In this document: positions 982 to 63,634 of the stretch, piece by piece
How the letters are laid out: every line of letters begins with the position of its first letter
How positions within the stretch are numbered: position 1 is the first letter of the stretch
Source: Thozetella sp. PMI_491
Lineage: Eukaryota; Ascomycota; Sordariomycetes; Chaetosphaeriales; Chaetosphaeriaceae
Length of the DNA stretch: 64,000 bases
Reading direction: 5' to 3'
Assembly: GCA_021432635.1 (NCBI GenBank)
Contig: MU270042.1
Span: forward strand, 369,577 to 433,576
Position numbers and translations under genes: made by a program
Notes under the pieces: generated by a model
The model's input: the letters and a program-made list of their open reading frames with translations, nothing else
The model's database searches: none
What the model was told of the DNA's origin: nothing

Positions 982-986
982 CTTAG
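982..986. repeat. Target-site duplication, left copy
   Basis: The sequence cttag immediately precedes the LTR and is repeated at 8698-8702 after the other LTR. A 5-bp duplication is usual for Ty3/gypsy integrases. Confidence 0.8.
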
Positions 987-8266: not shown

Positions 8267-8697
8267 TGTTATAACACTAAGATTTTAAGGTTAGTATTTT
8301 TAATATATAGGGGATTTTTTCTTAAGGTAGGAAGGGTAGAGATAAGTAGAGTATTAATTAACTAAGGGGTATAAAATCTAGAGTATAAGCTAAAGTAACT
8401 TAAATAGATTAATTACTAAAAAGTAAAGGCTAACTAATCTATCTAGGTAGAGACTATAGTTTTATATACTAGGTTACTCTTTATAGCTTATCTATTCTAA
8501 GGAGTGCTAGTGATCTAACTTACCTAGTAATTTAAATCACCACTAAGCCTCTAAGGAGGTAATCCTTTCTTATTAGTGGAATATCTACATAGGTGCCTAA
8601 GGCATCTATTAGGGGTTTTACCCTTATTAACTGCTAGGCCTAAGCGCTAAGCCTTATTAACAGTCACGGGGAGATAGCTAATACCTTGATTATAACA
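8267..8697 (-). repeat. 5' LTR of the gypsy element
   Basis: 431 bp, beginning TGTTATAACA and ending TTATAACA, so the TG...CA ends are intact. It is noticeably less A/T-converted than the 987-1417 copy; for example it keeps several CpG and CpA-containing words near 8640-8680. Confidence 0.88.
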
Positions 8698-8702
8698 CTT
8701 AG
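8698..8702. repeat. Target-site duplication, right copy
   Basis: The sequence cttag, identical to 982-986. Together the two mark the integration site exactly and show that the element was not rearranged after insertion. Confidence 0.8.
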
Positions 8703-11094: not shown

Positions 11095-11612
11095 AAGTAT
11101 AAGCTAGAGGTAGTCAGTAGATTTTTCTTTTTACCTAGTATAGCCCTAGTATAAGAGGAACTATATAATAGATCTAGACCTTAGTCTAACTAGGCTATAT
11201 TAGCTTGATTTATATAAGTAGTTAAAAAATACTATTCTACCTTAGCGATAAGGATTATTAAGGAATTAATTATTAAGATTTATTAGTCTATTATTTTAAT
11301 AATTAACTTTATATATTTATTTCCCTAGATAAAACTAACTATAAGACTACTTTATATAATTATTATAGGGCTTTACCCTATTCTTATATATTTATTCTAC
11401 CTTAGTTAAAGCCTAGTACTTATTAGATCTTATATTAGTATACCTTCTTTTATATACTATTAGACTTATATTATTTTAACAGCCCTACTTATAAACTAGA
11501 TTATAAGGTTATAGTATTAGTTTTATGTTATAGCTATTAGGCTATAGAGTATATAAGAGTAGTGTTATATATAGGTTATTCTACACATACTCTACTTCCT
11601 ACTTCTTATTCT
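11095..11612 (+). repeat. Left arm of a large imperfect inverted repeat
   Basis: About 518 bp that reappear as the reverse complement at about 13266-13790, with substitutions mostly of the C/T and G/A kind. Examples are the words around 11,130-11,200 (ending near ctaactaggctata) and 11,510-11,611 (tatagctattaggctatagagtatataagag region). The arms flank a truncated copy of the gypsy element. Confidence 0.75.
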
Positions 11613-11616
11613 CACT

Positions 11617-13189
11617 ATTTATAAGTATTAGTATAATATCTCTTTTTTTAGTAGTTATAATACTTAATATTTTTAAGGTCTTATTTTAATTTTTATTATA
11701 TTATATTTAGGTTTATAAGTCTTATATAAGTTTTATATATTATTATCTAATAGTTCTAGTGTTAATTAATAGATTATTTAAGCTAGTTATTTTATTATAG
11801 TTTTTTAATATTAACTAGTTATTAAGTTTTTTACTAGTGTTTTTCTATCCTTTATTTATATAGTTAGTTATTAATATAAGTTGTTATTTTTATATATAAT
11901 AGGAAATCTTTTAAGGGGTTAAGCTTTAAGACTTTATCTTTAACTTTATTTTTAAGTCCTTAGTAAAATAGGAATTTCTTAGTTTTATTAATATAGTTTA
12001 AGAGTAAGTAAAGTCATTAAAATTCTATTATATATTAAACTATTGATTCTTTTTACTTAAGTTAGTATAGGTTTTATTCCTACTAATATTTCTTATCTAG
12101 TTTTTAAAAGAGGGATTTTAAGGCTTATTTATATCTTATATAAGTTATAAAGATATTATAAGTTTTTAGTCTAAGTTCTAAAGTAAATCCTTTTTTAAGG
12201 AAGTTTATAAGATATAGTTTAAACTATACTAGTGTTTTTTCCTTTAGGAATAAGTTAGTATATATTACTTTTTTATATTTATTTTAAAAGCTATTAGTAT
12301 AAAAGTAGTAATAAGTTTTTACTTAGGCTAGGTAGCTTTTTAAATATCTATAGGTGTTATTAAAAGGTTAGGGCTAGTTAAGCCTTAGCTTTTTATATCC
12401 TTTAATAAGGGTTATAATAATATTAATAATAGTATATATAATATATAGGTTGCTTTTAAGTTAGGGTACTTAAGTAATATTAATATATAGTTTACTAATA
12501 AGTTTTTTATCTAGAAGAGGTCTCTCTTTATATTAGTGTATTTAGTATTATCTCTATTATTATTAGTGTCTTTTATTTTTTAATTAAGACTGTGTTAAAT
12601 AGGAGTCTTTTTCTTTTTTTTATTAGACTTAATAGAGTTATAACTATTAGTAAATAAGGTGTTTTTATTAGATATATTAACTATAAAATATTATTAATTA
12701 TACTTATCTTATCCTTTAAAAAAGAGTAATTAATATGTTATAACACTAAAATCTTAAGGTTAATATTTTTAATATATAGGGGATTCTTTCTTAAGGTAGA
12801 GAGGATAGAGATAAGTAAAGTATTAATTAATATAAGGTAAGATCTAATAATATAAGTATTAAGCTTATAAATTAAGTATAGACTTATAGAGATTAATTAC
12901 TAAAGAGTAAAGGCTAACTAATCTATCTAGGTAAAGACTATAGTCTTATATATTAAGTTGCTCTTTATAGCTTACTTTAGATTATTAAAGTCTTAAAGCT
13001 CTTAGGTAAGCTAGGAGCTTTAAGCTTATTAAGGGCTAAGTACTTTATAGTAATCCTTTCTAATTAGTAGAATATTTGTGTGGATGCCTAAGGTATTTAC
13101 TAGGGGTTTTACCTGTTATAACTACTTATAGCTAAGCACTAGGTTATATTAATAGTTGTAGAGAGGTAGTTAATACTTTAGTTGTAATA
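11617..13189 (-). mobile_element. Truncated second copy of the same gypsy family, with LTR
   Basis: This aligns with 7149-8697 of the complete element, that is the coding 5' end plus the 5' LTR. The LTR-like part is 12736-13189, 454 bp, beginning TGTTATAACAC and carrying a roughly 100-bp segment in its middle that differs from the other LTRs. No second LTR and no target duplication are visible, so the copy is a fragment. It is fully RIP-decayed. Confidence 0.8.
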
Positions 13190-13265
13190 TAACCTTAATC
13201 TATATTTTATATTAATAGATAATTATAAAAGTATTAAACTAACCTAAAGACTTTCTTTATATTAA

Positions 13266-13790
13266 GAATAGGGAGTAAGAAGTAGAGTATATATAAAATA
13301 ACCTATACATAATATTACTATTATATACTCTATAGCTTAATAGCTATAACATAAAACTAATATTATAATCTTGTGGTTTAGTTTATATATAAGGCTATTA
13401 AAATAGTATAAGTCTAATAGTATATAGAAGAGGGTATGCTAATATAAGATCTAATAAGTATTAGGCTCTAACTAGGGCAGGATAAATATATAAAAATAAA
13501 GCAAAGCCTTGTAATAGTTATATAGAGTGGTTTTATAGTTAGTCTTATCTAGAGAAATAAATTTATAAAGTTAATTATTATCTAGACGATGTAAATAGAT
13601 AGATAGATAACTAGCTAGTCCTCCTTTAAGGTAGGATAGCACCCCTTAACTACTTATATAAATTAAGCTAGTATAGCCTAGTTAGACTAGAGTTTAGATC
13701 TACTATATAGTTCCTTTAGTACTAGGGCTACGCTAGGCGAAAAGAAAAATCCACTGACTAACCCTAGCTTAATATACTTAAAAGTTTAAA
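13266..13790 (-). repeat. Right arm of the large inverted repeat
   Basis: Reverse-complement partner of 11095-11612. This arm keeps slightly more G/C (for example the gctaggcg word near 13,733), so the two arms were mutated independently after duplication. Confidence 0.75.
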
Positions 13791-15400
13791 TATAATAGAA
13801 AAAGAGATAATAATAATATTATATAACTACTTAACTAATAGGTCTTATTAATATTTAAGTTCTATATGTATTTTATAGTTAATCTAAGGTTATAAAGCAC
13901 TAGGTTTTTAAATAGACTATTTAATTATACCAGCTTAGAAGAGACTTTCTTTTATAAGTATTAATATATATAATAAAACTATAAGTAGTAATATATTACC
14001 CTCTCTCCTTTATTATTCTTTTTATAAGTTTTTATTAAAGACTTAATACTATAATATTATATTTATTTACCTATACTTATATATATTAATATATAACCTA
14101 TTATTATAGATCTAAAATATATATTATAAAACGTATAGACTAATATACCTCTAGGGTAGGTAAGAAAGCCTTATACTTATAAAAGATCTATATAAGTAAA
14201 AATAACTATATGCCTTAAAACATCTATAATTCTATATAATAACTACCTCCTATATAAAACAGCTATACTATATAAAAACGTTAAAAACATACTAAAATAT
14301 ACGCTAAGCCCTTTTAATATATATCTATTAATAAGGGTATAAAACATATAAGAAGATAAAGTGTTTTAAATATAAGTAAGTGTTTTATACACTAGTCTTT
14401 ACAAATATATTAATATAGTAAAAGATTAGCTATCTTAATATAGTAATTAATAGGGCTATATAGTCTATATATATATAGCTTTACTCCCTGATTTAAATCT
14501 TAGATCTTTATTCTCTTATATATACACTTAAATTCACTTATACTTTCACTCTAAAAGATCTACTGGCTAGACTTACTTTTTATATATAATCTATTACTTA
14601 TATTATTAAAATTAATTAATTATTATATCTTTTAATATTATACTATTTATATTATTAAGGGGAAAAATAATAAGGGTATTAATATATTTATAAGTAATAG
14701 TTTTATAATATAAGTAATAAAAGTTAATCTATATAAGAGTAAGATTAATAGCTATTCAGCTGTAAATTACTTACTCCTTAATATATATATATAAAGCCCC
14801 TATTTATTAATAAGCTAGCCTTTATATATTATACTTTTACTAGCCTATTATTATACTTTAAATAGCTAGGCATACTTAAGAGTATTTATCTAAGGGAAAT
14901 TTTATTTTATTTAGCTTAAATAAGTAAACTAATTAATTAAGAAGAGCTAAGACAAAAATATTTTAAGTAGGGCTTTATATTTAATAATTCTTATAGTTTT
15001 ATATAATAAAAGAGTTAAAAGCAGTAAATATCTTATTAATTTATAACGCTAGGTTTATATTAATTACTTACTCCTTACCCTCTCTTTATAAATACTTAAA
15101 ATATATTATCTAAATACTTACTACCTCTTAATTAAGCTACTTAGTTATAAAGCCTAAACAATATTAACCCTTTATTTATATTTCTACTAATAAAGTTGTT
15201 ATACTCTAGCTAGGAATACCCCAAACTATATCTATCTAAGACTTCCACCTATAAGCTAGATAAAACTTCTTATAGAAACTCTTAGATTTTACATAGAATT
15301 TAAAACGTCACAGATTGTTAAGGATTACCTTATAGTAGCTATGCTTTACGTGATTATTGCTAAGGCTATCCTTATATATATAAGCAGCTATACCTGTACG
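13791..15400. other. AT-rich decayed DNA, edge of the RIP block
   Basis: No intact frame or recognisable motif. G/C content rises gradually from about 15,200, and the block ends near 15,400. Confidence 0.6.
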
Positions 15401-34561: not shown

Positions 34562-35030
34562 TCAAAATTTGGCACACTTTTCGAGCAATAGCTTAATGAC
34601 CACTTCGTGCTTATTGACAGCTAAATGCAGTGGCGTGCGGCCCCATTTATCTTGTGCCTTGATGTTGGCGCCTTTCTCGAGCAGCTGCTTAACAGCCCCT
34701 TTGTGCCCGCTCTGAGCGGCTGTGATCAGTGGCGTGCGGTCCCATTCATCTTGTGCCTCAATGTTGGCGCCTTTCTCGAGCAGCTACTTAACAGCCCCTT
34801 TGTGCCTGCTCTGAGCGGCTGCGATCAGTGGCGTGCAGCCATATTCATCTTGTGCCTCGATGCTAGCACTCTTTTTGAATAGCTGCTTAACTGCCCCTTC
34901 GTGCCCGTTCCGAGCGGCTGTGATTAGTGGCGTGCAGCTATATTTATCTTGTGCCTTGATACTAGCACTCTTTTCGAGTAGCTACTTAGAAGCCTTTTTA
35001 TACCCTATCAGTAATTTCCTAACGAGCTGT
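34562..35030 (-). pseudogene. Ankyrin-repeat gene relic cut by the AT-rich block
   Basis: The minus-strand frame ending at the TGA 34562-34564 reads about four and a half ankyrin repeats of 33 residues. Each carries a variant of TPLITAAQSGHKGAVKQLLE and a KGANI(K/E)AQD loop. One internal stop at 34784-34786 (TAG) stands where sister repeats have CAG, the exact C-to-T change expected of RIP. Upstream of about 35,030 the frame dissolves into AT-rich DNA, so the N-terminal part is lost. The repeats are about 90% alike, so this was a recently amplified array of the kind found in fungal NLR/HET-type proteins; no such N-terminal domain is visible here. Confidence 0.8.
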
Positions 35031-35139
35031 AGTAGAGCTTGTAGAAAATTAGCCTGTGTGACGCTAAAATCTATAAAAACGAGGGGTAGAGCTTATAGAA
35101 AAAAAGGAGGTAGAGCTTATAGACTGCTTATTTAAAAAA

Positions 35140-35714
35140 CACTGTTAAAAATATAAGAGATAGAAAGGATAAAAATAAGCTTAAATAATAAATTTTCAGC
35201 TTATAAGAATTTTCTAGATTTAAATTTATACGAGAGAAATCCTAGAGTTATTTTACCTTGTTAAGGCCTATATAAGTGGGGCTTACTTATTAACTAATTA
35301 TACTAGAGCTAATTTCTTATAGTTAATAACTAGGGTTTATATAATTCTTAGGCTAGGAGAAGTAATTATAAATAAGATAAGAGAAGTAAAAATTAAGATT
35401 ACTTTTTACTTAATAACCTAGTATAGTTATATTATATTAGAATTAAAGGCTTATTAAAAAGTAGGAAGAAGGGCTGTATTTAAATATATATTATATTAAT
35501 AGAGTATAAAGGGCTTTTATAACTATTTATATTAGCTATATATATTTACCTATAAAAGTAGGGCTAGATAATATATTAAAAGTCTAGCTTTATTATATAC
35601 CTCTCTTAAGTTGATATAGAGTTTTATATTATGTTAAACTCAGGGTTTTTAAAGTAAAAAGTTGCTTTTATATAGATATTTTTTATCTATACTTTTTTTT
35701 TAAAAGTAAGTTAA
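35140..35714. other. AT-rich DNA, start of the second RIP block
   Basis: No frame and no recognisable motif. Confidence 0.6.
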
Positions 35715-36880
35715 CTAAGCTATAATAAGCTACTTAAACTATAATGTATTAACTAGGTTATAATAAGTTATTTAAGCTATAATATATTAATTAAGCTATA
35801 AAAAGTTAATTAAACTATAGTAAATATATAGCTTGTAATTTATATAAATAACTGTTAGATAATTAATAGGGTAGAGAGAGAAAAGAGGATGTTTATATAA
35901 GGATAATATTTATATATAAAGGGGATAGTTACTAGAATAACTAGTAATTTTATAACTAGGCTATAATAAGCTATTTAAGTTATAATAAATTCTTTAAGCT
36001 ATAATAAGCTAATTAAGCTATAATAAGTTAATTAAGCTATAATAAATTATTTAGGCTAAAGTAAGTTATCTAGGCTATAATAAGCTAATTAAGTTATAAT
36101 AAGTTATTTAAGTTATAATATATTTGCTAGACTATAATAAGCTAACTAAGCTATAATAAGCTAATTAGGTTATAATAAGCTAACTAAGTTATAATAAGCT
36201 ACTTAAGCTATAATAAGTTATAATAAGCTAATTAAGTTATAATAAACTATCTAGGCTATAATAAATAAACTAGGCTATAATATATTAATTAAGTTATAAT
36301 AAGTATATAGTTAGTAATTTTATATAAATAACTATTAAATAATTAATAAGATAAAAGAGAAAAAAAACGTTTATATAAGAATAATATTTATATATAAAGG
36401 TTATTAATAGTTATTAAAATAACTAGTTATTTTATAGTTATATTATAATAAGTTATTTAACCTATAATAAGTTATCTAAGCTATAATAAGTTATTTAAGC
36501 TATAATAAATTATTAAATTATAATAAGCTAATTAAATTATAATAAACTAATAAAGCTATAATAAGTTAGCTAGGCTATAATAAGTTAATTAAACTATAAT
36601 AAGCTAATTAAGTTATAATAAGTTAATTAAGTAATAATAAGCTAATTAGGCTATAATAAGTTAATTAAGCTATAATAAACTAATTAAACTATAATAAATA
36701 TATTATTAATAATTTTAAATTAATAACTATTAAATAATTAAAAAGGTAAAGAGGAAAAAAAATATTTATATAAGGATAATATTTATATATAAAGAGAGTA
36801 GTTATTAAAATAACTAGTAATTTTATAATTAGATTATAATAAGTTATTTAAGCTATAATAAGCTAATTAAGTATTAATTA
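35715..36880. repeat. Nested tandem array: 19-bp units in about 400-480-bp higher-order repeats
   Basis: Dozens of 18-19-bp units of the form ataataagctaattaagct follow each other. They are interrupted three times by a longer shared segment (starting near 35,830, 36,310 and 36,700). That segment reads through a common ataaataactattaaataatt core, a purine run and tatttatatataaag, and then the short units resume. The array is therefore a higher-order repeat with periods of about 480 and 390 bp. Confidence 0.8.
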
Positions 36881-39800
36881 TCTAGCTTATTAAATATAAG
36901 GTAAAAAATAGCTCGGTCTTATAATAAATATATTTACTTTTACTATAGGTAATCTTTTAATATTTTAATAGTGATTTACTTATTAATATAGCTATTAATA
37001 GGAGGAGGTTAAGGCTTATTAGTCTTTTATATAGATTTATTAGGCCTTTTTTTATAACTAGGCTTATATTAAATAATATCTAAATATAAGGTATTTTAAG
37101 CCTAGTTCTCTTATAAAGTATTAATTATTTTATATTAAATAACTTATAAGGAATAGAAAAACTTAGTGTTTTTATTTATAGTTAAAATAAATAAAAGCTA
37201 TTTAAACTAGGCCTAAGTTAAAGCCTAATAAGAAGTACTATAGAATTATACTCTTCTTAAGGTTAACTCTTTTCTTTTTAACCCTTTTAATAATAATAAT
37301 TCTCTTAATAATCTATCTAGTAACTTATTTAATCTTTCTTCTCTTAATAAATAGTCTCTTCTTAGATTATCTATAACTTACCTAGCTAATAGTAATACTA
37401 GCCTTTAATAATAACCTAGAGATAATTCTAGCCCTAGTAGTTTTTTTAATAGTAGTTTTAATAGGATTTAAATATAAGTTATATCTAATCTTAGCTAGGA
37501 TATTATTTATTTTAATAGTAATATAAATAATTATAAAAATAATAGTTATAAAAGTAATAATTATAGTAATAATAACTATAAAAATAATAGTTATAAAAGA
37601 GATAGTTATAAATATAAAAAGGGTATTATAGGTAATTTAGCTATAATTTTTATTACTATTAGTAAAGATAAGTCTTTATCTTAAAAGTCTAAGAGTAAGT
37701 AAGATAATAAAGCTTTTTATATCTTTATTAATAAAGGTAAATAAGTTAATATTAAAGGCTTTTTTATTTTTAATCTAGTTAGTTTTTATATTTATACTAA
37801 TATTTTTTAGGTTTATTTATAGGTTGAACTTCTCTTAGTCCTTATATTTTTAAGCTTTTATCTTTCTTAGATATTTATTATAACCTTTATTAAAGTTATA
37901 CTCTTAGTTATACTACTTTTTTTCTAACCCTAGTTTATACTTTAACTAGTATTATTAGCTTTTATTAATCTTTATAAGCCTTAGTTTTAAGTATAACTTA
38001 TAATATTTACTTTTATAATCCTTTTATAAAAGACTTACCTTTTACCTGCCTTAATAAATATTAAAAGTATAAAAGAGCTTAATAAGTTATTTATAATATT
38101 ATTTTATAAGGGTTTTTTATCTTTTTTAAGGGTTTTTTCTTAGCTCTTTAGGCCTTAATAGTCTTTTTTTTTAACTTATAAATAAAAGCTTTTAAGCTTA
38201 TTTTTTAAGCTTATCCCTATTATTTTCCCCTATTACCTTATAATTAGTTTACTCTTTTCTTTATTTTTTTTAAAAGTAAATAGTTTTAATACCTTAAATA
38301 TCTTTAAGAATTAAGTAATTACCTCTTTTATATTTTTTATATCTATTTTATAAACCTATTAATTATACTTTAAAGGCTATCTAGCCTATTTAACTAGATA
38401 ATATATATCTTTTTTAATATTTTTTTTACCTTATATTTCTTTAATCTCTTATTTATCTAGGTCTTTTTTTAGGTTTAGTATTTATAAAAAGTTAGCTGTT
38501 TAAACGCTTTTTTTAATCCTTTAAGGCTTAAATAACTTAATAGAAAATATATTATAAAGCTGATTATATTATTCTAATAATACTAGTTAATATACCTATA
38601 TTTTAATATATTTAACTACCTTAAAAGGCCTTATAAACTTTATTATTAGCTTTTACTTAGTCTTTAACTTTAAGTTTTTTATTAATAGTTTAACTAGGCT
38701 TTTTACTTTAAACTTAATAAGAGTATAGTTTATATTATAGTATTTCTTTTATAGCTTAATAATATACTTTTAGTATTTTCTTATTAATTTATATATAAAC
38801 TTATAATACTTTAGTTATTTTTTAACTATAAAAACCCTTTTCTTAAGAGTATTACCCTTAATATTTATATTAATTATAAGGCTATAAAATATTAAGGCTT
38901 TATTTAGAGTTTTATCTATAGTAAAACTTTAGAGATTATTATATATTACTTTTATAAAGTGATATAATTTTATTTATATTTTTAGGTTTTCCTTAATATA
39001 ATACTTAAGGTAATACTTTAAAAATTAGTTTATCTTCTTTATTTATTTATTAGTCTAAGAGTAAAATATAGTTAATAATTATTATTTTATACTTATTTAC
39101 TAGTATAATTCTCCTTAAAACTTATTTATAAAGACTAGGCCTTTATCTAAGACTATTTTAACAGGGGTTTTAAAGGGTAACTCTATCTTTTTATAAAAGA
39201 TTATTATTAGCTTTATAATATTAATTATTATTAATACTAGTAAAAACTTATAGTACTTTATAAAGTAGTTAACTATTATTAAAATAGTATTAATCTTTAC
39301 TTTTTTATACTTTACTAGTAATAGTTTTATTATAAAATCTATTAAGACTTTTTTAAATAGCTTTATTAGTAAAGATAAGAGTTAAAACTCTTTATAAAGA
39401 TAATACTATCTTACCTTTACTTTAAAGTAGATTTAATATATTTTTATATAGTTTTTTTACTTTTATAAAGACTTTTTTCTAATAAAACCTTTTTAAAAAG
39501 AGGTTTAAGGTCTTTATTATACCCTTATAACCTATAATTAAATTATTATAATATAGTTTTAAGATCTTTTACTTTATACTCTTTTTTATTAGAATTTATA
39601 ACTAACTTTAATATTAAATAATATTACTTATATTAATTAACTAGGCTAGGTTTACTCTAGCTCTCTTTTATTTAATAGTTTTTATAATAAATAATTAAAG
39701 CTATATATCTTTAGTATTTATTTATTAGAGTCTTATAATTAAATCTTATAAGGACTTTAAGACTTTTATAATAGATATTATTTTAAAAAGGATATATATA

Positions 39801-42800
39801 TATACTTAACTTTATAAGATAAGTTATTTATAATTAGCTATTTTAATATTAATTATTACTAATATTATACCCTAGCTATTATAAATTTAAAGACAGGGGC
39901 TTATAGTTTCTTTTAGTTTTTTTTACCTTTAAGCCTATCTTATTTTAATAGATTATAGACTTACTTATTTAGTCTAGGTTATTATAAGATAAATACTTAT
40001 CCTTTAGACTAGAGTTATTTTTTTCTATAAGATATATAAATATTTATCTATTTTTAAACCCTTTTTAAGTTAGTAATTTAGTCTTTTTAATAGCTTATTT
40101 ATAAGATTTTAATTACCTGTCTAGTACTTAATTTTAAAGTTAAAACTAATTAGATAGATATATTATTTAGCCTATTAGTTATTTAACTTTTTAAAGCTTA
40201 TAAACTCTTTTAAATTCTTATAATTAAAATAAATCTTAATAAAGAATTAACTCCTTTTTAGATAAGGTTTTTAATACTTAAATAAACTTATTATTATTAG
40301 TATTTTCTTTTTAAAGATTTAATAGTTTAATATTATATCTCTTTACTTTTAAGATTAAAATACTATAGGGTAATATACCTTATTTTTATCTAGTTAACTT
40401 AAAATATTTATCCCTATTATTATTAAAATATTAGTCTTTAAATATATTAACTACTTTAAGTTAAAATATTATAATAATAAAGCTTTTATAAAAGCTTTAA
40501 CTAAAGTATTAAATACTTATAATACCTTATCTTTTAAGGTTATATCCCTTAGTTTATAGCTTTTTTTACTCTCCTTTAAAAGATTAGTAAAGGGAGAGAT
40601 AATCTTAGAATAGGTATAAATAAATCTCTTTATAATTTATAGGTATTAGTTATTTAATAATAATATAGATCTACTTTAAATTAATAAAAACTTCTCTAGC
40701 TAAAATTATATAGCTTAAAAAGTTTACTTACTTTTAATAAAATATATACTTCTCTAGGTTTATATATAACTAAGCCTAGTTTAGTCTCTTTAAAACTTAA
40801 TATAGGTATTTAATATATTATTTTTAGTCCTTTAAAAATATTAAGATATTATTTAAGTATATTATATAAAAGGTATTTAATAATTTCTTTAAAGCTAGGT
40901 AGATATAGTTTTAAAAAGTTATAAGTATATTAGTTAATCTAAATAGTATAATTAAATACTTATAATAACTATAATATATTTAAAATATTATCTTTTACTT
41001 ATTATTTATATAAATATAAATCTAATAATATATCTTTTTAATATTAATCTTAGAGAATATTTTTAATTTTAACACTTAATTTAAAATCTTAAAAATTAAT
41101 AATAATATATATTAGTTCTTTATTATTACTTTATTTAATTCCTTATAATTTATATAAAGATAAAAGGTTTTATCTTTTTTAAGTATAAATAAGATTAAAG
41201 TACTTATTAGACTTTTTAATAATTAGATCTTATCTTATTTTAACTTGTCTTAAATATATTATTTTATTACTTTTAACTCCTTTTAAGATAGGTAATAAAT
41301 TCTTTTATAAGGTAAAATAATATTAAGAAAGAGGTTAATAATATAATTTATTTCTTTATAACTAGGTAAAACACTAGACTTCTTTATATTAAAGACTTTA
41401 AACTAGTGTTATAGCTTTTTTAAAAGGCTTATAACTTAACCTTATTAAGTTTTAGCTTATTATCCTCTTTTAATAAATATATTACTTTATATAAGAGAAT
41501 AATAATATATATAACTGCCTTATTTTAATAGACTTTTATAAACTTTTTAAAAGAGATAATATAAATAAAGATAGGTTTAAATATATAACACTAGTAATCT
41601 TTTTATAAAAAGAGTAAGATTCTTAACCTTTTTAAGCTTAGGTTTAATAGGATTATATTTATATCTTCTTATTCTTTTATTATAACTATTAGTATTACTT
41701 TATATCTTTAAGTCTCTCCTTTATAATTTATTAATAAAAATAATAATTAATAGAGTCTTTTATCTTATAATTAAGGACCTCTTAGTCTTTTAATTATTAG
41801 ACTTAATATTATTAATTATTTTAACTAGTATTTTTATATAAACTCTATAATAATTATATCTATTTTTATTATAATATTTAATAATACTTTAATTTTTATA
41901 TTTAAAGATTTTTTATTTTATATAAGAAATATAGTTATTTTAAAGGTATTTCTAATCTTAACTCTTATTAGTTTTATTAGTAGGACCTTTTTATTAATAG
42001 ACTTTCTTTTTTCTATTATATAATTATATCTACTTATATCTTTTTAAAGTAATTAATAATTAAATAATCTCTTAAGTTATAATAATAATATAAAAACTTT
42101 TTTCTCTTATTAGATATAAGAAATAACCTTATTTCTCTTTTTAATAGTTATTCTCTTAATAGATATATTTTAAGTTTATAATTAAGTATCTCTTAAGTTA
42201 GTATTATAAAAGAGTTATATTATAATACCTTATAGTTTTAAAAGTATTTTATCTAAAAATACTTTAAGCTTAAAGATTGTTTAAAGTCTTTTTAATCTCT
42301 TATCCTTTTATATTTACTAGTCTTCCTAGTTTTTTAAAGGTATAAAAGTACCTCTTAGAGTTAAATAACTAGGTTAACTATTTATTATTAAGTATCTAGC
42401 TTTTTTATCTTATAAAGATTAATTTTATTTATTAGCTTAAAGAATAGTTTTTTATAGAATAATATAATATATTCCTTATTACTCTTTTATTTTAGTAGTT
42501 TCTTAATATTATTTAGATAAGAGTAAAAGTTATAAGGGGATTAACCTAATTATTAAATAATATTTTCTTATATTTAAACTATCCTTACTTTTTTATTTTA
42601 ATTATTAAAGATAAAGTTATTAGTCTAGATTATAAATTAATCTTAAAAAGTTTTAATCTAGACTTATTTCTCTTTATCTTTAATAAACTTTAAATAATAG
42701 TTTTATCTAATATAATACTCTTAGTCTATATTATTTAAGGCTAGTAAGATCTTCCTTAAGCCCTTTTTATATTTCCTTAAGGACTTTTTAAATATTTATT

Positions 42801-43400
42801 TCAGGTTCCTTAACTAGTTATCCCTTTAATATATACTAATTATCCTTAAGAGCTTAAAGAGGTTTTTAACCTTAACTTCCCTAGGGCTATTATCTCCTAG
42901 GGAGTCCTAGCTATTATTATTACCCTATTTATTTCACTAGGGAATTAAGATATCTCTATCCTTAAGTTTCTTTTAAAGCTTAGCCTCTTTTTATCTAAGT
43001 ATATAAAGCTATTCTAATAGTTAAATTTATACTTTTATATTAATAATCTCTTTACCTTTAGTCTATACTTTTATAATAGATACCTATACTAATAACTATT
43101 ATTTTATCGTTAGGGTTTTATATTAGCTTTCTACCTCTAAAGGTTTATTTATAATTATAAAGTATAAAGGGTCTAGCTAGGTATTAGGAATAATTAACCC
43201 CTAGCTTTATTATATACTTAAATTAGTATCTTCTTAGACTAGGGCCTTTCCCTTTACTAAGCCTGATCCACCAGCTCTTATTATAGTACTAGTAGCCTAA
43301 TATAAAGAAGTATTAGAATTATAATATTATAGTATTAAGTCCCTAGGAGGGGTTACTAATATAGGCAAGAGTTAAGGGAACAGGTAATTATATTTCTCAA
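36881..43400 (-). mobile_element. Second RIP-destroyed gypsy-type retroelement region, borders unknown
   Basis: Extremely A/T-rich. On the minus strand about 40828-40872 reads as a reverse-transcriptase core: YLDDILIFSKD with both Asp as Asn and Ser as Leu, as RIP would produce. The same neighbourhood (40,935-40,965) shares the word aatagtataattaaatacttataa with 4496-4520 of the first element, so the two are related at the RT region. I found no LTR pair and do not claim borders; the block could hold more than one element. Confidence 0.55.
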
Positions 43401-50934: not shown

Positions 50935-53814
50935 TCATTGCGAGTCATTCGATGCCCCCCACACATGGGGAGACGCACCAGGATTCGGTTCGCCGAACGG
51001 TGTTGGCGGATCCTCGTCCACGTATTCCCGAAAGATGCGCCCACTCAACTTGGTCTGCACCTCTGACGCATTGGTGCCAAACATATCTCCAAGGTGGTCC
51101 GCGGTGATGCCGTCGCCGATCAGCGTCACCGAGACACCGGTGCGGAGGACGCGCGGAGGCACGTTGCTGACGTCGATAGAGGACATGTCCATCGAGTTGG
51201 CGCCGACGAACTCGCACTTGTATTTTCCTGCCACTAGCACATGCGGCCGTGACTCGGGGTCTCCCCTGCGGTTGCCGTTCTCGCGACGGGGCAAGCCATC
51301 GGCGTAGCCGAGCGGAATGGTGGCCAGCTTCATGGCCCGGGGCGTCGTGAATGTCCCGCCGTAGCCGACCTCCGAGCCCTTGCAGTACTCGCTGATCTGG
51401 GTGATCTTGGACCTCAGCGTCATGACCTGCTCCAGCGGGTTGCTGTCGGCATCGAAGGGCGCCTGGCCGTGGAAGGTGGCACCCATGCGTACCATATCCT
51501 TGTGTAGGGCCTTGCCTAGGAAGACGGTCGACGACGCGCCGATGGAGTGGTCTGCATCGGGGAAGTGCCTGCAGATGTCCTCAAAGTTGGCGAGCTGCCG
51601 CTGGGTGGAAATGCCCCAGCGACGCCCGTAGGGGCTGCTGCATGGCCCACGCCTTGCCATCGTCGGGTCTTCCGCCCCCAGCAGCGTGTCACCCGCCTTG
51701 GCCAGGTGGGTCATGGCCAGCTTGATGTCGATGTTCTCCAGTTCGCGCGCCCTGAGGCTGGCAAGCAGCTCGCTCGTTTCCCTGCTGCCCATGCCCGCCC
51801 GGCTCATGCCGCTGTCGAATTGGAGGACGGCCGGAAGCTGGCGCCTGGCGTCCACACCGGCCGCATTCCATTCGCGCACCTGCTGCAGGCTGTTGAGCAC
51901 GGGGGTGATCTTGTACTTGATTAGCAGCCGCGGATCCGCGCCCACCAGATTCCCATCCAGCACGTTGATGGCCACGTCGCTGACCAGATCGGGCCGCGAG
52001 CTCTGCAGCATCCTCCGCAACTCGACAGCCTCTCCGATGCGCGCAACGAAGAAGTCGCGACAGCCTTCGGATACGAGAGTCTTGCTGACAATGTCGGCGC
52101 CAAGCCCGTAAGCGTTGGCCTTGACCACGGCGGCCGCCCGCGTGCGGCGTGGCGCTGCCTGCTGTCCATCTACGCCTGGCTTGGGGTTGGCTAGCATTGC
52201 CAACCCGAGCCGGAAATTGCGCCGCAGCGCACCCAGGTCGATAGTCGCGATGCCGCCAGCGGCTGCGCGTAGCTGCTCGCGTTCTGACTCTTGGTCCATA
52301 GCAGCAGCATATTCCGTCGGAAAGTCTTGCGTTCTGGGAATCCCTTTACTTCCGCCTGTCGCCAACTTATCTGGCTCGCTAGTATTGATAGATTCTATGC
52401 AGATAGACGTCTTCGATGTAACAGATTTCTGTGCGCACAATACATTCCCTCTCTGCGGTTGGACGAAGGACCACCCATCGTGTCCGTGGTCGCTAACCAC
52501 GATGCGAGGGCGACGGCGTCTCCGAGGCAGAGTCCAAATCCGCCTGCTTCCAGTATTACAATTCGACATGTCGGCGTTGGGATGCATGTAGCTGCGTATG
52601 GAAGTGGCGTCACTGCTCGGGCTATATTCCTTGCCGCTCTCTTCATCCCCGGCGTCAGTCGTGCGCACTGGGCTGGGCTGTCCCGATCCCGAGTTTGCGA
52701 AGGGTTCGTAGAGCAGCCCGTTGACGAGAGCGACGACCAGGTCGGACGTTCCCTCCAAGAGCGCCGGATCGTTGGCGAGGCGCGGCGTCAGTATAGCGAG
52801 AATGGCCGTGGTCGTCGACAGGATGCCGGTCCGCACCGCCCAGGGTCCCAAGGCCCCGTTCGCGAGATAGCCCTTCTGGTATCCGACGTCCTCGATGGTC
52901 AGCTGAAGCACGTGAGCATCGCTGCCACCTCTGATCTGCGACCGCACCGAAGGGATGGCCTGAAACATGAGGTCCTCTCCGATCTCGCCCAGGAGGTTCA
53001 GTCCGCCGCGTGCCAAGGCATGCTTGATCTGCTCGACGAAGCTCGAACGCGCATTCCAGGCCGCCGATCCCGACGGTGAGGCAAGCCGGGACATGGCCAG
53101 GTTCACGAGCCCCTGGTCTATGCCGTAGCCCACCATCATCAGACCGAAGTGTGTCCAATCTGGCACGGTGCCCGATGTGTTCGGATTCTGCAGGCGCACG
53201 CGCGACTGCACCATCAGATCCCGCATTCCGGTGTACATGGTGAAGGCGAAATGAGTCGAGGCGCTACCAGCAGCCGTGTTTGTGGCCAGCTCGGCGACTG
53301 CTGCGGCCAGGGCTGTGCCGGCCATGATAACTCTCGAGCGGCGGCTGGTGGGCGTCGCCGTTCCGGCATTCTTGTCGCGCCAGAACCCGATCGCATGGGT
53401 CACCACCGCGACACCAGCACCGGAGAGCGTCCCAATTGTCGTCCTCAGCCAGGGCGGCACGTTGGTCTTGTCAAATCCGGCTTCCACACCATAGCTGATG
53501 AACTGCCGCAACACCGTCGGAATGAACACCGACATGAAGTTGCGAGCCGTTACGTTGGCCACAGACCCCAGGATCTTGGCGGTATCACTAGCAGAGTCCT
53601 GGTTCAGCGCAACCCGGGCTTGGAAGTCTGGCGCTTCAGATGTGTAATTCTGTAGTGTACTTGCATCGTCCGCTTTACTTTTCCGCCAGGGAGGCTGGAG
53701 CAGAGATGACAGAATTCTGGACGGCAGCATTTGACCCGAGAGCCCACACAAAGAAAATAACGTAGACTTAGGATCGGGCAGGGCCGAGCTTAGAAGCGGT
53801 AGCTGTACTGCCAA
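50935..53814 (-). CDS. Bacterial-type alanine racemase with a long hydrophobic N-terminal domain
   Basis: One uninterrupted frame of 959 codons without introns. Residues about 520-940 are a fold-III alanine racemase: TIDLGALRRNF, then AAAVVKANAYGLGA with the PLP Lys at about 565, then QFDSGMSRAGM, then HKDMVRMGATFHG, then EVGYGGTF with the catalytic Tyr, then the C-terminal barrel (VTLIGDG...TADHLGDMFGTNASEV). It would interconvert L- and D-alanine, or other small amino acids. Residues about 60-390 are Ala/Gly-rich, with several hydrophobic stretches, and match nothing I know. A Ser/Arg-rich linker separates the two. Met506 could be a second start giving racemase alone. Intronless length and the bacterial-type domain suggest transfer, though yeasts also have fold-III racemases. 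A TATATAAG lies 88 bp upstream. The domain call is firm; the fusion needs transcript proof. Confidence 0.85.
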   Translation of the reverse strand: MAVQLPLLSSALPDPKSTLFSLCGLSGQMLPSRILSSLLQPPWRKSKADDASTLQNYTSEAPDFQARVALNQDSASDTAKILGSVANVTARNFMSVFIPTVLRQFISYGVEAGFDKTNVPPWLRTTIGTLSGAGVAVVTHAIGFWRDKNAGTATPTSRRSRVIMAGTALAAAVAELATNTAAGSASTHFAFTMYTGMRDLMVQSRVRLQNPNTSGTVPDWTHFGLMMVGYGIDQGLVNLAMSRLASPSGSAAWNARSSFVEQIKHALARGGLNLLGEIGEDLMFQAIPSVRSQIRGGSDAHVLQLTIEDVGYQKGYLANGALGPWAVRTGILSTTTAILAILTPRLANDPALLEGTSDLVVALVNGLLYEPFANSGSGQPSPVRTTDAGDEESGKEYSPSSDATSIRSYMHPNADMSNCNTGSRRIWTLPRRRRRPRIVVSDHGHDGWSFVQPQRGNVLCAQKSVTSKTSICIESINTSEPDKLATGGSKGIPRTQDFPTEYAAAMDQESEREQLRAAAGGIATIDLGALRRNFRLGLAMLANPKPGVDGQQAAPRRTRAAAVVKANAYGLGADIVSKTLVSEGCRDFFVARIGEAVELRRMLQSSRPDLVSDVAINVLDGNLVGADPRLLIKYKITPVLNSLQQVREWNAAGVDARRQLPAVLQFDSGMSRAGMGSRETSELLASLRARELENIDIKLAMTHLAKAGDTLLGAEDPTMARRGPCSSPYGRRWGISTQRQLANFEDICRHFPDADHSIGASSTVFLGKALHKDMVRMGATFHGQAPFDADSNPLEQVMTLRSKITQISEYCKGSEVGYGGTFTTPRAMKLATIPLGYADGLPRRENGNRRGDPESRPHVLVAGKYKCEFVGANSMDMSSIDVSNVPPRVLRTGVSVTLIGDGITADHLGDMFGTNASEVQTKLSGRIFREYVDEDPPTPFGEPNPGASPHVWGASNDSQ

Positions 53815-58157: not shown

Positions 58158-59260
58158 CTAGGGCGGCGTTTTCATGCCCTTGACATTCTTGGGTTTGATC
58201 GGCGGGCTCAGCATCTTCTTGCCAACGCCGTCCTCCCACTCGACGGTGACATCGCGATGCATGTTCCAGCGGATTAGCGTATCCCACTTCTTGCAGGTGT
58301 GCACGGTGTTGAAGTTGGGATGGGGCATAGACCGGCCTTCGACCCAGTTGTAGGTCAGCAGACTGATATCACCGTGGCACATGAGGGTCTGGCGAAGGTT
58401 CTCGACACAGTGCTCGAGGTGGCCCTGCACAACCGACTCGGGCGCGCCCGCGAAGGAGCCTTCATGCTGGTCATAGTAGTCGCGGTGGAGGGCCTTGCGC
58501 AGCAAGTCCACGCAGTGCAGCTGGTGGAACACGTCCAGGCTAGCAAGATACTGGCCCGTACCATGGTCGCGGTCCAGGAGCACGGGGTATTCGTGGTACT
58601 CGTTCACTGCCTCCCATTGCTCCTTGGTGATGCCGATGGCGCCGCCTACCGGACCTAGGTTGTCATTACTACGGGACTCCACCGCAGGCTCCAACGGGAG
58701 CTTAGAAACGCAGAGGCTGCTCACCATCGGTGATGTTGTCCCATGCGGCATCGACCTCTGGCCCAATACCGGTAAAAGGAGACTGGAGGCCAAAGCTGCC
58801 CTTGAACCTCTGGACCTCATACTCCACGCCCTCTTCGGCATCGGGCACTGTTTTGCTCCAAGGGTTAGCACTCTAGTGTTTCCCATGCCCACGGAAGACA
58901 GAGCAAGGCATGGCGAAGCGTTAGGGATTTAGCAGACGCACACCATTGCCCGAGCAGTCTCCCGCACTCCAGTTGGCTCAGGTGCAGTGAGGCTCGGGAA
59001 ATCAACACCGTGATGGCCAGCGCCGCGCACGATGCCACTAAAAGGAGAGCCTCGAGGCTCAGTCGCCAGGTGGATGCGGGGATCCGACGTCGAGAGATCA
59101 ATATAGGCTTTTCATCGGCAAGAAAGGCTTCCCCCTCGCTGGTTTCGTCGGCACTGGCAGTGCGGCTCGCATATTCGCCTTCTATGGGCATGTAGGCGGG
59201 ATGTTCCATCTCCTTTCCGAATTTCGACAGAGATATGCGTACGAGTTTGTTCAGAGACAT
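58158..59260 (-). CDS. UstYa-like (DUF3328) oxidase
   Basis: Three exons (59260-58942, 58847-58725, 58654-58158), introns 94 and 70 bp, 312 aa. The first intron has a GCTAAC branch site. The protein is a type II membrane protein: a polar N-terminus of about 65 residues, one membrane segment at about 67-88, then the family pattern C-x2-RLLGQWLPD-x3-GVEYE. Two HxxHC motifs follow, HQLHC at 191-195 and HLEHC at 226-230, with LMC and a C-terminal CKKW. The paired HxxHC motifs are presumed metal ligands and define the UstYa family. In ustiloxin, asperipin-2a and related pathways such proteins perform oxidative cyclisation, often at Tyr, of ribosomal peptides. The gene is divergent from the repeat precursor (60142) with 881 bp between starts, a strong context. 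Substrate is inferred from that neighbour. Confidence 0.92.
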
Positions 59261-60141
59261 GCTAACGTGTAAGTCAAGACAAGGCAGTGATATTCTGGCG
59301 AGAGGAGATCCTTGGTGTCTGGAGGAGAGAGAGATGGGAGGATCTTGAGAAAGGGACTTGAGAAAGGGAGGGGGTGGTCAGTCTCTAGTCTTCCCCTCTT
59401 CTCCTGTAGCTGCCCAAGGATGCCATGGCATCATGGCTAAGAGCAGTGAGATTGGTCACTATTGCGTATCCTCCCAATGTACGCCAAGGCGAGCCATCTA
59501 GGAAGGTCTGGCAGTTTAGGAAGGTATGTGAAAGGCTCTTTGTTGACACATGATTTTTCAAATGATTGTCGATCCGACCGGCCGTAGAGGGTCCTCTGCA
59601 GAAGACGCCCTGTTGTCAACACCGAAATGCAACACACCACCATTCATGACGTTTGTGATGGCAGAAGTCATTGGTATCACCAATGGAAAAAGTAGGTCTC
59701 GCGATCACCGCCTGGTCGGACATCTCGGACTTGCTCTAGAGTTGCATTTAGGGGGCTCTAGCGACAGCCTCTTGGCCAGTAGGAACATGGCCGGCTCATC
59801 CATGTTTCGTCACACCTTCCAAGTTTGCTCTGGCTTGGATTGCGGGAAATGTGAGCCTTTGCGAACCTATATGCCGTAAAGACGGCCAGTCAGGTCTAGA
59901 CCGAGAGATTGCTTCGCGTCGCGCGCCAGACCGGCACTACGTCCTATATCTAGCTAGATAAGCCAAGACGGTATCAGCAATGGGTTTGCCCCAGCTTATA
60001 TCTACTCACTTCTCTATCCATCTATCCATCGATCTGTCTGTACAAGAGATTGTTCAGAGTCTTTTCCTGACTGCCAAGCCAAGTTTGCTATCTATTCCAC
60101 ACTCATCTTATTTACGTCCCTTTCCCAGACACTCGAACAAT
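59261..60141. promoter_or_regulatory. Shared divergent promoter region of oxidase and precursor genes
   Basis: 881 bp between two divergent starts without a supported gene. It contains a direct pair of CGG triplets spaced by 6 nt (59717-59728, tcggacatctcgga), the kind of site bound by Zn2Cys6 regulators, and a TATA-like ttatat near 59,997 ahead of the precursor. Divergent arrangement would allow joint control. The CGG pair could be chance. Confidence 0.4.
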
Positions 60142-60607
60142 ATGAAGGGCGCTTACGTCGTCGCTACCATTGCTCACGCTGCGGCGGTCTGGGCTGCTGC
60201 CATCCGTAAGTTTGCCATCCCCGATGAGACAGCATGATCTTCGCTCAACCGTGCAACTAGCGGTGGACTCGCTTGGTCCGAGAAACGAAGAGAACTGGAA
60301 CGCCGCGGCTTGGTCCAACTTCGTAAAGAGCTACGTGGACGGCGCCGAAGCTGGCGCTCAGAAGCGAGACGAAAACTGGAACGCCGCAGCTTGGTCCAAC
60401 TTCGTCAAGAGCTACGTCGATGGCGCCGAAGATGCCGTGCAGAAGCGCGACGACAAGTGGAACGCTGCGGCTTGGTCTAACTTTGTCAAGAGCTATGTGG
60501 ATGGCGCCGAGGACAGCGCTCAGAAGCGCGAAGAGAACTGGAATGCCGCTGCCTGGTCCAATTTTGTGAAGAGCTATGTTGACGGCGCCGAGGACGCCAA
60601 GGAGTGA
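60142..60607 (+). CDS. Repeat-containing secreted precursor of a ribosomal peptide (KEP/dikaritin type)
   Basis: Two exons, 60142-60205 and 60261-60607, with a 55-bp GTAAGT...CTAG intron, give 136 aa. The ATG at 60142 is chosen because it gives a signal peptide (MKGAYVVATIAHAAAVWAAA) that splices in frame into the repeat exon. After a short leader (PVDSLGPRN) come four repeats of 27 residues, the last truncated to 25. All contain WNAAAWSNFVKSYVDGAE, flanked by acidic residues; repeats 1-3 end in Lys-Arg (60362-60367 and the two equivalents), the Kex2 cleavage site. This is the architecture of Kex2-processed repeat proteins and of dikaritin precursors: signal peptide, near-identical cores, dibasic separators. 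The single Tyr in each repeat is a candidate for UstYa-type modification. The final peptide and its ring chemistry cannot be read from sequence. Stop codon at 60605. Confidence 0.9.
60287..60604 (+). repeat. Four 81-bp coding tandem repeats
   Basis: Repeats start at 60287, 60368, 60449 and 60530 (the last is 75 bp). In the 18-residue invariant block the DNA differs in 12 of 18 codons among copies, always synonymously. The copies are therefore old enough to have drifted while the peptide was held constant. Confidence 0.92.
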
Positions 60608-62020
60608 CCCTTGCAAGACACCAGATCGCGGGTGGCAGTGCTGCAGTGGCTTATAGGAACACGAGAGATTGGACAGCGGTAGCTAGGTGCCGACTTTTAT
60701 GCATTACACTCGTTTAAAATAGTACGTTCCACGATGAAGTTTGGCTGCGAAAACAGCCCTACCTCTGTGGCCTGGCTAGTTGGCAGATTTTTGTCCCAAT
60801 CGATCGCCATGTTGAACAGCCACTATATTGGGCAAGAACGCAAGCTGCTTAGTACGCGCAAGCGACGATATGATATTATATGCATGGCGGGATATTGTTG
60901 TTTTGCACTCCCGTATGGATACTCTTGTAGCGATGCAGAGGAGCCGGCGGAGCCTCGGCAGGGTGAGAAAACAGGTGTGAGAAGAACTTACAACACCCCA
61001 ATCCTGGAAAGTTCGTTAGCTCGCTACTTGACAAGGGCTATGAACAGGGGCCAGTAGAAGTCCGATATAAGGATTAGACAATAATTACATCAAAGCCCTT
61101 GGTAAAGCAGGCAATACAGGGATTTCCAAGGTGTTTTTCGTAACTTGTACTCTCCTCTACCTTGCTCCAGAATTGGCTGAGCTTAGCTTAATATGTACAG
61201 AGGTAGTTAGGCAAAATTTAGATTTTCCGCCTTAGTTATACTGTATCACCGTGCCATCCTAGCACCAACTTTTCCAGCATTGGGGTGTAGGCGCCCAGGC
61301 ATCTATGCAGGATGTGGTGGGGCAAAGACAAGGCTGTCCTGCACCTGTATTCTCCGCGGATGCCGGGAGGCGGATTCCGGATTTATCACCCTGTCGTGCC
61401 AAGTACCCACTTATACTAGTGCACGTGACCACCTCTTGGCGTAGTTGTACGACACGCCGTTATTACCAGGTTTCTCGGCGCGGGTTGACACTCCTTTCAG
61501 CCAAATCGGCGAATTAGGAAGTTGTTCACCGCAATGTCGACCGAGGACACATTCCGGTCTCATCCCCCGCGATGGCGGGGTTGCCGGGATCGGCATTCAT
61601 TTGATTGCCCAGAGAAAAACGAGGCATGTCGCATCCGTTTTTTGCGGCACATAAGCAAGTTCTGTTACACTCAGTCCAGTCGGCCGGCCTGGCCGCGACC
61701 CATGCAGGCCGAAATTCGTCGGAGAAATCCGTCAAGATGGGCGGCAGCACGTCCGCAGACCGGATCTTGAAAGTAAGCTTGTCCTGACGCAAAGGCGCTG
61801 GGCGCCTCGAGAGCGTTGGGTGTGGCGGCTTACTGAGGTATCGGCTGGGAGCCTGAGAATGGAATACCAGTTGAATAGCAACGTGCATGCCGTCTAGGTA
61901 TAGCTACCGTAGTATCTGGCAGTTCATTTTAATGCACAACCTAGCTATTCGAGGTCTATATACCGGCCCTAGTCGGTCCGGTCAAGGGCTCCACTCACTT
62001 TACGATTTCCTCTGTCTTTG
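60608..62020. other. Intergenic DNA between precursor and transporter
   Basis: No supported gene. A frame at 61626-61772 (plus) begins ATG and ends before a GTAAGC donor, so it could be a first exon, but no continuation was found. Other ORFs here overlap and look random. Confidence 0.4.
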
Positions 62021-63634
62021 TTATCCAGTCGGCAGGCCAGATTGAACCAGAAGCTTACTTCTCTCTCGGATGTTCGGACCCCATATGACTAACACCCATG
62101 GCACTACGCCAAGAGCAAGGCCGATGCCCCCCAGCAGAAAGCCTGCACCCAGAAAGCCTAGCGAGTTAAGCATGGGCTCTACGGCCAGCGGCAGGCAGGC
62201 AGCAAATACGTTGCGTGTGAAGGCTTGCGCGGCGATAGCCGAGCTCGCGTAAGACTGGTAGGTGTCGGCAAGATAGTTGAAGACGGCAAGGTAGACGCTG
62301 AAGATGCCGAGGGTAAGACAGCCGAGCGAGAGCGTGGGAACGATCCAAGGTACGGCGGGGCGCGCGGTAGCACCCAGCCAGAACAGGCCAACCGGCAAGA
62401 AAAGGCTCTGCACACAGGTGAAGAACAGGCGCGCCTCGGGCTGGTTGCGCAAGCGGGACGGCAGCACCCTTGGCGATATGTGCTCCTGCACGATAGCCGC
62501 CATGGCGGCCAGAATAGATGCGATGCTAACGGCCAAAAAGCAGAGACCGGCAGCTTGCGGAGAGAACCCGTAGGCCTCGGCAAATATCAGTGGCACAGCT
62601 TCAAAGGTCAGGTAGAGGATCGACCAAGCAAAGCCCATCCATAACGAGAACCAAAAGACGACGCTCTCGGAGACAAGTAACTGGATCGGCCGCGTCAACG
62701 ATGTCCTGAGAAGGACGGCAAGCGTTGCGCGCTGTTCGTCCGCCTCGACCTTCCAGCGCACTCTCGGGTGTTGCTTTCTCGCGCTCGCGTCCGTCTTAGT
62801 CTCGGCGCTGGGTGCGATGCTGCTGGCCTCAACTCGGTCGCACCAGGCGTTAAGAGCCCTGGCCCTCTGGCTCAGAATCACACTGCCGCGCGTCTCGGGG
62901 AAGAAGAGAAACAAAGCCGCTACCACGAGCCCGCAGGTGATAGTCTGTAGGTAATAGATCCACCGCCAGCTCAGGTGCTCAACCATGACGCCCGACACCA
63001 AAGGTCCGAGGCCGGTACCACAGAGGGCAGCCCCAGAGAAGATGGCCATGGCCGTATTGCGGTCGCGCGTTACGTAGATATCGCTTATGACGCCTCCCAC
63101 CACTGTACTGAACACGGAACACGAGAGCCCTGCAAGTGCCCGCGTCGCCAACAGCCCAGCGAAGGACGCTGTCAGGGCCGAGCCCAGTTGGCTGGCCACA
63201 TAGACCACGCCTGCGGCAAGAAATAGAGGCCGCCGCCCTGTCAGCTCCGAGAACGAGGCTAGAAATAACGGAGCCACCGCAAAGCAGAGAGTGAAGAGGG
63301 TGATGCCTGCATACACCGCCGTTGAGCTGATGCCCCACTCGAGTTGATACTGGGGCTTCCCTGCGGCATACGCGCCAGGTGTGTACGTGGTGACAAAAGT
63401 GCTCAGGCACGAGAGCCAGGTCACGAACGTCTTGCGATGCTGCGGCCAGCCCTGCGGGTCCTCGTACTGAGAGAACGAAGAGCGGCGAAGCGGGACTCCA
63501 TTGCCTGGAGTGGACGTCAGGTAGCCAAGGCCGGGGAACGCTGCGAGGTCGGTGGCGAAGGTCAGGTATAGATATTCCACCGGCATGGTCACGTCGTCTT
63601 TGCCAAGTTCAAAGACTTCAGTCGCCGGATCCAT
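62021..63634 (-). CDS. MFS transporter, DHA1 (12-segment drug:H+ antiporter) type
   Basis: Single exon, 537 aa, about 12 membrane segments. A cytoplasmic N-terminus with YEDPQGWPQHRK at 57-68, the usual lead-in of fungal DHA1 transporters. Motif A between segments 2 and 3 as SELTGRRPL at 129-137. Antiporter motif C in segment 5 (GAALCGTGLGPLVSG, about 201-215) followed by SWRWIYYLQ. A central loop of about 60 polar residues divides the two halves. Such proteins expel small molecules against a proton gradient at the plasma membrane. In dikaritin clusters an MFS gene usually exports the peptide. Here it lies 1.4 kb from the repeat precursor and would be its natural exporter, but specificity is inferred. 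The ATG at 63634 opens directly into the usual N-terminal region. Confidence 0.92.
   Translation of the reverse strand: MDPATEVFELGKDDVTMPVEYLYLTFATDLAAFPGLGYLTSTPGNGVPLRRSSFSQYEDPQGWPQHRKTFVTWLSCLSTFVTTYTPGAYAAGKPQYQLEWGISSTAVYAGITLFTLCFAVAPLFLASFSELTGRRPLFLAAGVVYVASQLGSALTASFAGLLATRALAGLSCSVFSTVVGGVISDIYVTRDRNTAMAIFSGAALCGTGLGPLVSGVMVEHLSWRWIYYLQTITCGLVVAALFLFFPETRGSVILSQRARALNAWCDRVEASSIAPSAETKTDASARKQHPRVRWKVEADEQRATLAVLLRTSLTRPIQLLVSESVVFWFSLWMGFAWSILYLTFEAVPLIFAEAYGFSPQAAGLCFLAVSIASILAAMAAIVQEHISPRVLPSRLRNQPEARLFFTCVQSLFLPVGLFWLGATARPAVPWIVPTLSLGCLTLGIFSVYLAVFNYLADTYQSYASSAIAAQAFTRNVFAACLPLAVEPMLNSLGFLGAGFLLGGIGLALGVVPWVLVIWGPNIRERSKLLVQSGLPTG

Follow-up and report, generated by a model that had tools for sequence, protein, structure and literature searches.

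The end of a 64,000-nt window of the genome of Thozetella sp. PMI_491 carries three genes that are likely to form a UstYa-type pathway for a ribosomally synthesized and post-translationally modified peptide (RiPP). By "window" we mean the whole analyzed stretch, contig positions 369577-433576 of a 72.3-Mb assembly with 157 contigs. The genes lie at 58158-63634 of the window and encode a UstYa-family (DUF3328) oxidase (minus strand), a repeat-containing precursor (plus strand) and a major facilitator superfamily (MFS) transporter (minus strand). In such a pathway the repeats would be freed by Kex2, their core would be oxidized by the UstYa protein, and the product would be moved by the pump. 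The preliminary description of this DNA already read the locus as a fungal RiPP pathway, and that reading is supported by our analysis. The features of the locus, in window coordinates, are listed below.

58158..59260, minus strand: UstYa-family (DUF3328) oxidase gene; splice model with exons 59260-58942, 58847-58725 and 58654-58158; 312 aa.
58512..58526, minus strand: first HxxHC motif, HQLHC, taken from the sequence; the H, Q, L, H and C columns are invariant in an alignment of 21 sequences.
58407..58421, minus strand: second HxxHC motif, HLEHC; in the same 21-sequence alignment its second H and its C are invariant and its first H is present in at least 90%.
59261..60141, no strand: intergenic region, 881 bp between the divergent oxidase and precursor genes.
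60142..60607, plus strand: precursor gene, 136 aa, two exons, intron 60206-60260.
60142..60205, plus strand: precursor exon 1, with a hydrophobic, signal-peptide-like N-terminus as judged by inspection of the translation.
60287..60367, plus strand: repeat unit 1, ending QKR.
60368..60448, plus strand: repeat unit 2, ending QKR.
60449..60529, plus strand: repeat unit 3, ending QKR.
60530..60604, plus strand: repeat unit 4, ending AKE and followed by the stop.
62021..63634, minus strand: MFS drug-exporter-type transporter, 537 aa, MFS_1 132.8 bits.

The preliminary description was right about the nature of all three gene products. The oxidase was described as a DUF3328 protein with two HxxHC motifs, both of which are present, and the spliced protein matches Pfam PF11807 with 168.2 bits (cut-off 25). 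Both introns of the model have GT..AG borders. A single strong hydrophobic stretch (best window from residue 69) precedes the catalytic domain. No solved relative of this protein was found at E up to 1. The precursor has the four repeats ascribed to it, with a period of 81 nt and Lys-Arg behind units 1-3. The 25-residue unit is also correct, or 27 residues with the Lys-Arg; the one correction is that ahead of unit 1 stands a lone Arg (GPR) in place of a dibasic site. A search of the whole genome for the repeats gave one match, their own locus (two candidates scored). The Pfam scan of the precursor returned no pheromone family, and with a UstYa neighbor present the gene does not qualify as an alpha-pheromone precursor. 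A resemblance of the precursor to DUF3669 (19.8 bits against a cut-off of 22, E 0.0007, no single stretch passing) was taken as chance. The third gene indeed encodes an MFS protein of the drug-exporter type; among solved structures, Quinidine resistance protein 2 is the closest (E 4.3e-13). The gene lies downstream of the precursor gene and faces it; its translation may start at 63586 instead, since the database copy has 521 aa. The first two genes are divergent, as described, and the 881 bp between them presumably hold a promoter common to both.

The sequence of the repeat is strongly constrained. When the four units were compared in all six pairs along a stretch of 20 codons, the summed differences were 50 per 69 synonymous sites versus 6 per 291 nonsynonymous sites. 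For the whole 27-codon units 1-3 the values are 25 per 47 and 14 per 196, respectively. The units thus diverged at the DNA level yet stayed constant as a peptide, which points to purifying selection on the peptide. The precursor core in the window is WNAAAWSNFVKSY, and the consensus of the family is W-N-A-A-A-W-S-N-F-V/I-K-S/V-Y. This consensus comes from 33 repeats found by pattern search in 12 precursors, the window's included; the pattern itself fixes W6, S7, F9, K11 and Y13, and more divergent repeats may be missed. Positions A5, W6, S7, F9, K11 and Y13 are identical in all 33 repeats, W1, N2 and N8 are kept in 32, and A3 and A4 in 30; either V or I stands at position 10, and either S or V at position 12. 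The eight residues past the core Tyr are variable and include two to five acidic ones. Nearly all linkers in the 12 precursors (20 of 21) contain KR or RR, 3-5 residues ahead of the Trp.

Two of the homologous precursors, P0004 and P0006, have two kinds of repeats each, in which the core is followed either by AVDE/AVDD or by VRDF/VEDF/VQDF. One precursor gene of this kind may yield two products.

Two other roles of the repeat were considered and rejected. An amphipathic antimicrobial helix finds no support, as the hydrophobic moment is not clearly above that of shuffled sequences: among 5000 shuffles the fraction with a moment as high is 0.38 with the 14-residue core, 0.057 with a 20-residue unit, and 0.72 and 0.61 with two variants. 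The idea that the repeat mimics a structurally known protein was dismissed, since one unit has no match among PDB sequences at E up to 10.

Homologues of the precursor were searched for among about 5.8 billion proteins, with E up to 10; those of the oxidase were counted at E <= 1e-20. The precursor has 11 homologues, every one at E 4.8e-9 or better, from sources including Biscogniauxia marginata, Xylariaceae sp. FL0255, Penicillium hordei and Rasamsonia byssochlamydoides, i.e., from Sordariomycetes and Eurotiomycetes (the class was looked up for Biscogniauxia and Rasamsonia). In prokaryote and viral collections the precursor pattern gave 29 and 35 matches, none of which was confirmed as a relative. 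The oxidase has 34 homologues, in genera that include Biscogniauxia, Xylaria, Ustulina, Eutypa, Cryphonectria, Akanthomyces, Penicillium and Rasamsonia as well as Stipitochalara (Leotiomycetes) and Setomelanomma (Dothideomycetes). The taxonomic spread is two classes by the precursor and at least four by the oxidase. Compared in its catalytic region, with up to 211 positions aligned, the oxidase is 92% identical to its homologues in Biscogniauxia and Akanthomyces, 86% in Cryphonectria, 75% in Penicillium nordicum and 74% in Rasamsonia. In a quick tree it clusters with Cryphonectria, Akanthomyces and one further sequence (Shimodaira-Hasegawa-like approximate likelihood ratio test, SH-aLRT, 96).

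To assess linkage of the genes in relatives we compared the size of the longest contig behind each match, treating equal sizes as the same contig; expectations were obtained with sizes jittered by up to 20%. The input was 11 precursor, 34 UstYa and 119 MFS matches (120 of 621 MFS matches were listed, the window's own included), and all counts involving MFS refer to the matches listed. Precursor and UstYa share two contig sizes (363,345 in Rasamsonia and 562,445 in Biscogniauxia; 0.003 expected). Precursor and MFS share three (5,519; 494,915 in Xylariaceae FL0255; 562,445 in Biscogniauxia; 0.025 expected). UstYa and MFS share five (8,864; 224,817; 154,950 in Xylaria intraflava; 562,445 in Biscogniauxia; 3,950,794 in Cryphonectria; 0.026 expected). 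In total there are 10 pairings on eight distinct contig sizes, with 0.05 expected. All three genes thus appear on one contig in Biscogniauxia, and species agree wherever both paired matches carry names. The contigs of 5.5 kb and 8.9 kb have room for close neighbors only. In Rasamsonia the locus numbers are consecutive, 3164 for the precursor and 3165 for UstYa. Shared contigs and consecutive locus numbers suggest that the three-gene set is an inherited unit of Sordariomycetes and Eurotiomycetes. Conservation of the precursor/UstYa pair in relatives had been set beforehand as one of three tests that could overturn the RiPP reading; the pair is conserved, and the exporter with it. The transporters of the set do not form a sub-clade that would mark it: the contig-linked proteins are scattered in the MFS tree (eight changes for 8 of 51 rows, with 500 of 500 shuffles as low).

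Enzymes of the UstYa family are membrane-anchored and face the secretory lumen, and peptides of this sort typically undergo terminal trimming. Drug-type MFS pumps usually have substrates smaller than a 25-mer. The precursor would enter the secretory pathway, where cleavage by Kex2 behind Lys-Arg would release peptides some 25 residues long. In the lumen of that pathway, the UstYa-family oxidase would then oxidize the core W-N-A-A-A-W-S-N-F-V-K-S-Y, in which the conserved aromatic residues would be the obvious targets. The most likely oxidation would be a link between the side chain of a Tyr, Phe or Trp and some other residue. The peptide ends would then be trimmed, and the MFS pump would move out a small product. 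A trimmed product is expected because a drug-type pump should not be needed for a 25-mer that is already in the secretory lumen. We infer the order of secretion, Kex2 cutting, UstYa oxidation, trimming and export from asperipin-2a and ustiloxin, whose rings require UstYa-type enzymes (PMC6514808). Ring closure in victorin involves Phe and Leu (PMC9233826).

Among known systems the trio most resembles the asperipin-2a cluster of Aspergillus flavus (aprA, aprY, aprT, aprR) without its reductase. That cluster is also very small and consists of a repeat precursor, one UstYa-family gene, a transporter and a reductase (PMC6514808). Here, in contrast, no NmrA-type (isoflavone-reductase-like) match lies on the contig among the 102 matches listed for the genome (100 of 180 candidates scored), and in place of the hexapeptide FYYTGY the core has at least 13 residues, two of them Trp. 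The preliminary description called the trio the minimal signature of dikaritin-type pathways. As a description of the asperipin-2a cluster this is fair, except that the latter has the extra reductase gene.

Like the ustiloxin and phomopsin systems, the locus has a precursor with a signal-like N-terminus, a repeated core and Lys-Arg sites, and a UstYa homologue (PMC6514808). Unlike them, it has one UstYa gene rather than two (ustiloxin) or five (phomopsin; PMC7329392), its core is much longer than YAIG, and among the matches listed neither a tyrosinase (80 in the genome) nor an S41 peptidase (seven in the genome) is on the contig. The original dikaritin definition comprises five genes, including a tyrosinase, a methyltransferase and several DUF3328 proteins (PMC12048977); the trio, which itself has one UstYa gene, no methyltransferase tied to it and no tyrosinase listed on its contig, falls outside it. 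In its sequence features the locus does fit the broad class of UstYa-type RiPPs, having a UstYa protein with two HxxHC motifs 881 bp from the precursor and a repeated core with Lys-Arg sites. The epichloecyclin precursor gigA of Epichloe likewise has four repeats, Lys-Arg sites and a repeat unit that contains Tyr (PMC6514808, PMC9233826). Its products are described as cyclic nonapeptides that link Tyr and Ile, whereas no Ile is fixed here; the two are set apart by this description. The precursor also fits the description of the Kex2-processed repeat proteins (KEPs) surveyed in 2020, where the trio would join the 22% with a DUF3328 neighbor; this comparison is by description (PMC7329392).

As to novelty, substrings of the core are absent from the full texts that were searched (figures and supplements lie outside that search), and none of the titles listed in literature searches on UstYa, KEPs, dikaritins and Xylariales concerns the trio.

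The conservation of the core can also be explained without a central role of UstYa. The precursor might encode a secreted linear signaling peptide, like a pheromone or hormone, with its core kept by a receptor and UstYa playing a minor part or acting elsewhere. An almost invariant core over 33 repeats in two classes suits this explanation and is unlike most repeat types: in the survey text most KEP types are confined to a single genus, and nearly 200 of 838 occur in more than one (PMC7329392). A secreted 25-mer would also suit a receptor ligand. We nevertheless consider it unlikely, as UstYa adjoins the precursor both here and in Rasamsonia and is on the same (equal-sized) contig in Biscogniauxia, and nearly all pheromone-annotated precursors of the survey have no DUF3328 neighbor (PMC7329392). 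A conserved drug-type pump would, moreover, be superfluous for a secreted peptide. Less likely still, UstYa hydroxylates, chlorinates or desaturates the core instead of closing a ring. In the cyclochlorotine cluster, DUF3328 proteins are reported to carry out hydroxylation and chlorination (PMC12048977). Asperipin-2a, with a single UstYa, is crosslinked (PMC6514808), and the aromatic residues are the most conserved ones in the core; both points speak for a ring but are not decisive. That the three genes are chance neighbors is hardly credible. The genome does abound in UstYa exon matches (at least 149), and no profile is more abundant than MFS_1 in the surveyed fungi (PMC7329392), but chance would not account for contigs shared in several genera, for all three genes together in Biscogniauxia and for consecutive locus numbers in Rasamsonia.

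Several observations weigh against the three-gene RiPP pathway itself. The pathway is predicted from the genes. Its linkage in relatives we infer from contig sizes and locus numbers, not from contig maps. Among the matches listed, a partner on an equal-sized contig is missing for 7 of the 11 precursors and for 28 of the 34 UstYa proteins. This count is softened by the fact that short genes often remain unannotated, and the linkage table shows only the longest contig per protein cluster. In Ustulina deusta and Meristemomyces the UstYa and MFS matches are on contigs of differing size, and in Bathelium they are in differently numbered metagenome-assembled genomes. A dibasic site is absent from one of 21 linkers. 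Ahead of the first repeat, five of the 12 precursors have such a site and seven, the window's included, have none. MFS genes are generally not enriched near such precursors, according to the survey text (PMC7329392).

The cluster is best read as the three genes. The preliminary description left open whether the chemistry is minimal or the cluster continues past 64 kb; minimal chemistry is the better option, as the next 30 kb hold no further UstYa gene beside the trio and the contig has no listed match to a tyrosinase, an S41 peptidase or an NmrA-type reductase. In these 30 kb, 8 of 24 open reading frames (ORFs) of at least 150 aa were scanned against Pfam, and a larger cluster was rejected since nothing in the scanned ORFs ties to the trio. 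Six of them gave a Pfam row (a methyltransferase, a pyridine-nucleotide oxidoreductase, HET, MBOAT, an ankyrin match below its cut-off and fatty-acid synthase alpha) and two gave none. The methyltransferase ORF, 8.6-9.5 kb past the window, has no tie to the trio. Among the matches listed, the other UstYa match on the contig is a single exon at contig position 455,469, some 22 kb beyond the window, with the fatty-acid-synthase-alpha ORF a few kb away. Within the segment C28:453577-463576 of this contig the exon occupies segment positions 1893-2033 and the ORF 5423-9835; the two lie 22-30 kb past the window and are probably a separate cluster.

The UstYa exon matches of the genome (150 of 203 candidates scored) are often clustered, as at C36:596800-657821 and on C20 and C7; the family is a large expansion in this genome. 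A 959-aa frame (50935-53814, minus strand), some 4 kb upstream of the trio, has an alanine racemase as its second half (Ala_racemase_N 129.7 bits, Ala_racemase_C 102 bits), behind about 550 residues with no Pfam match. The trio sits in DNA of normal GC content. AT-rich blocks with many short tandem repeats occupy positions 1-15000 and about 35000-43000 of the window, with GC of about 0.16-0.29 in most 2-kb steps. Such blocks can be left by repeat-induced mutation (RIP).

Taken from its genes, the trio probably makes an undescribed modified peptide, and an almost unchanged core in distant fungi is unusual for this type of compound. We tentatively suggest, as a possibility short of even odds, that the peptide is broadly inherited and almost unchanging: UstYa would make at least one link through a Trp, Tyr or Phe side chain within the 13-residue core kept in Sordariomycetes and Eurotiomycetes, which would point to a fixed receptor or target, with a hormone-like or conserved ecological role, rather than to a fast-changing toxin. 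UstYa-type genes are abundant and few have a known substrate, while here the enzyme, the substrate and the pump can be read directly, in a set small enough for transfer to a laboratory host. The trio could show whether UstYa enzymes act on Trp. Its long, nearly invariant core separates it from most Kex2-processed repeat types, and the purpose of a conserved modified fungal peptide becomes testable.

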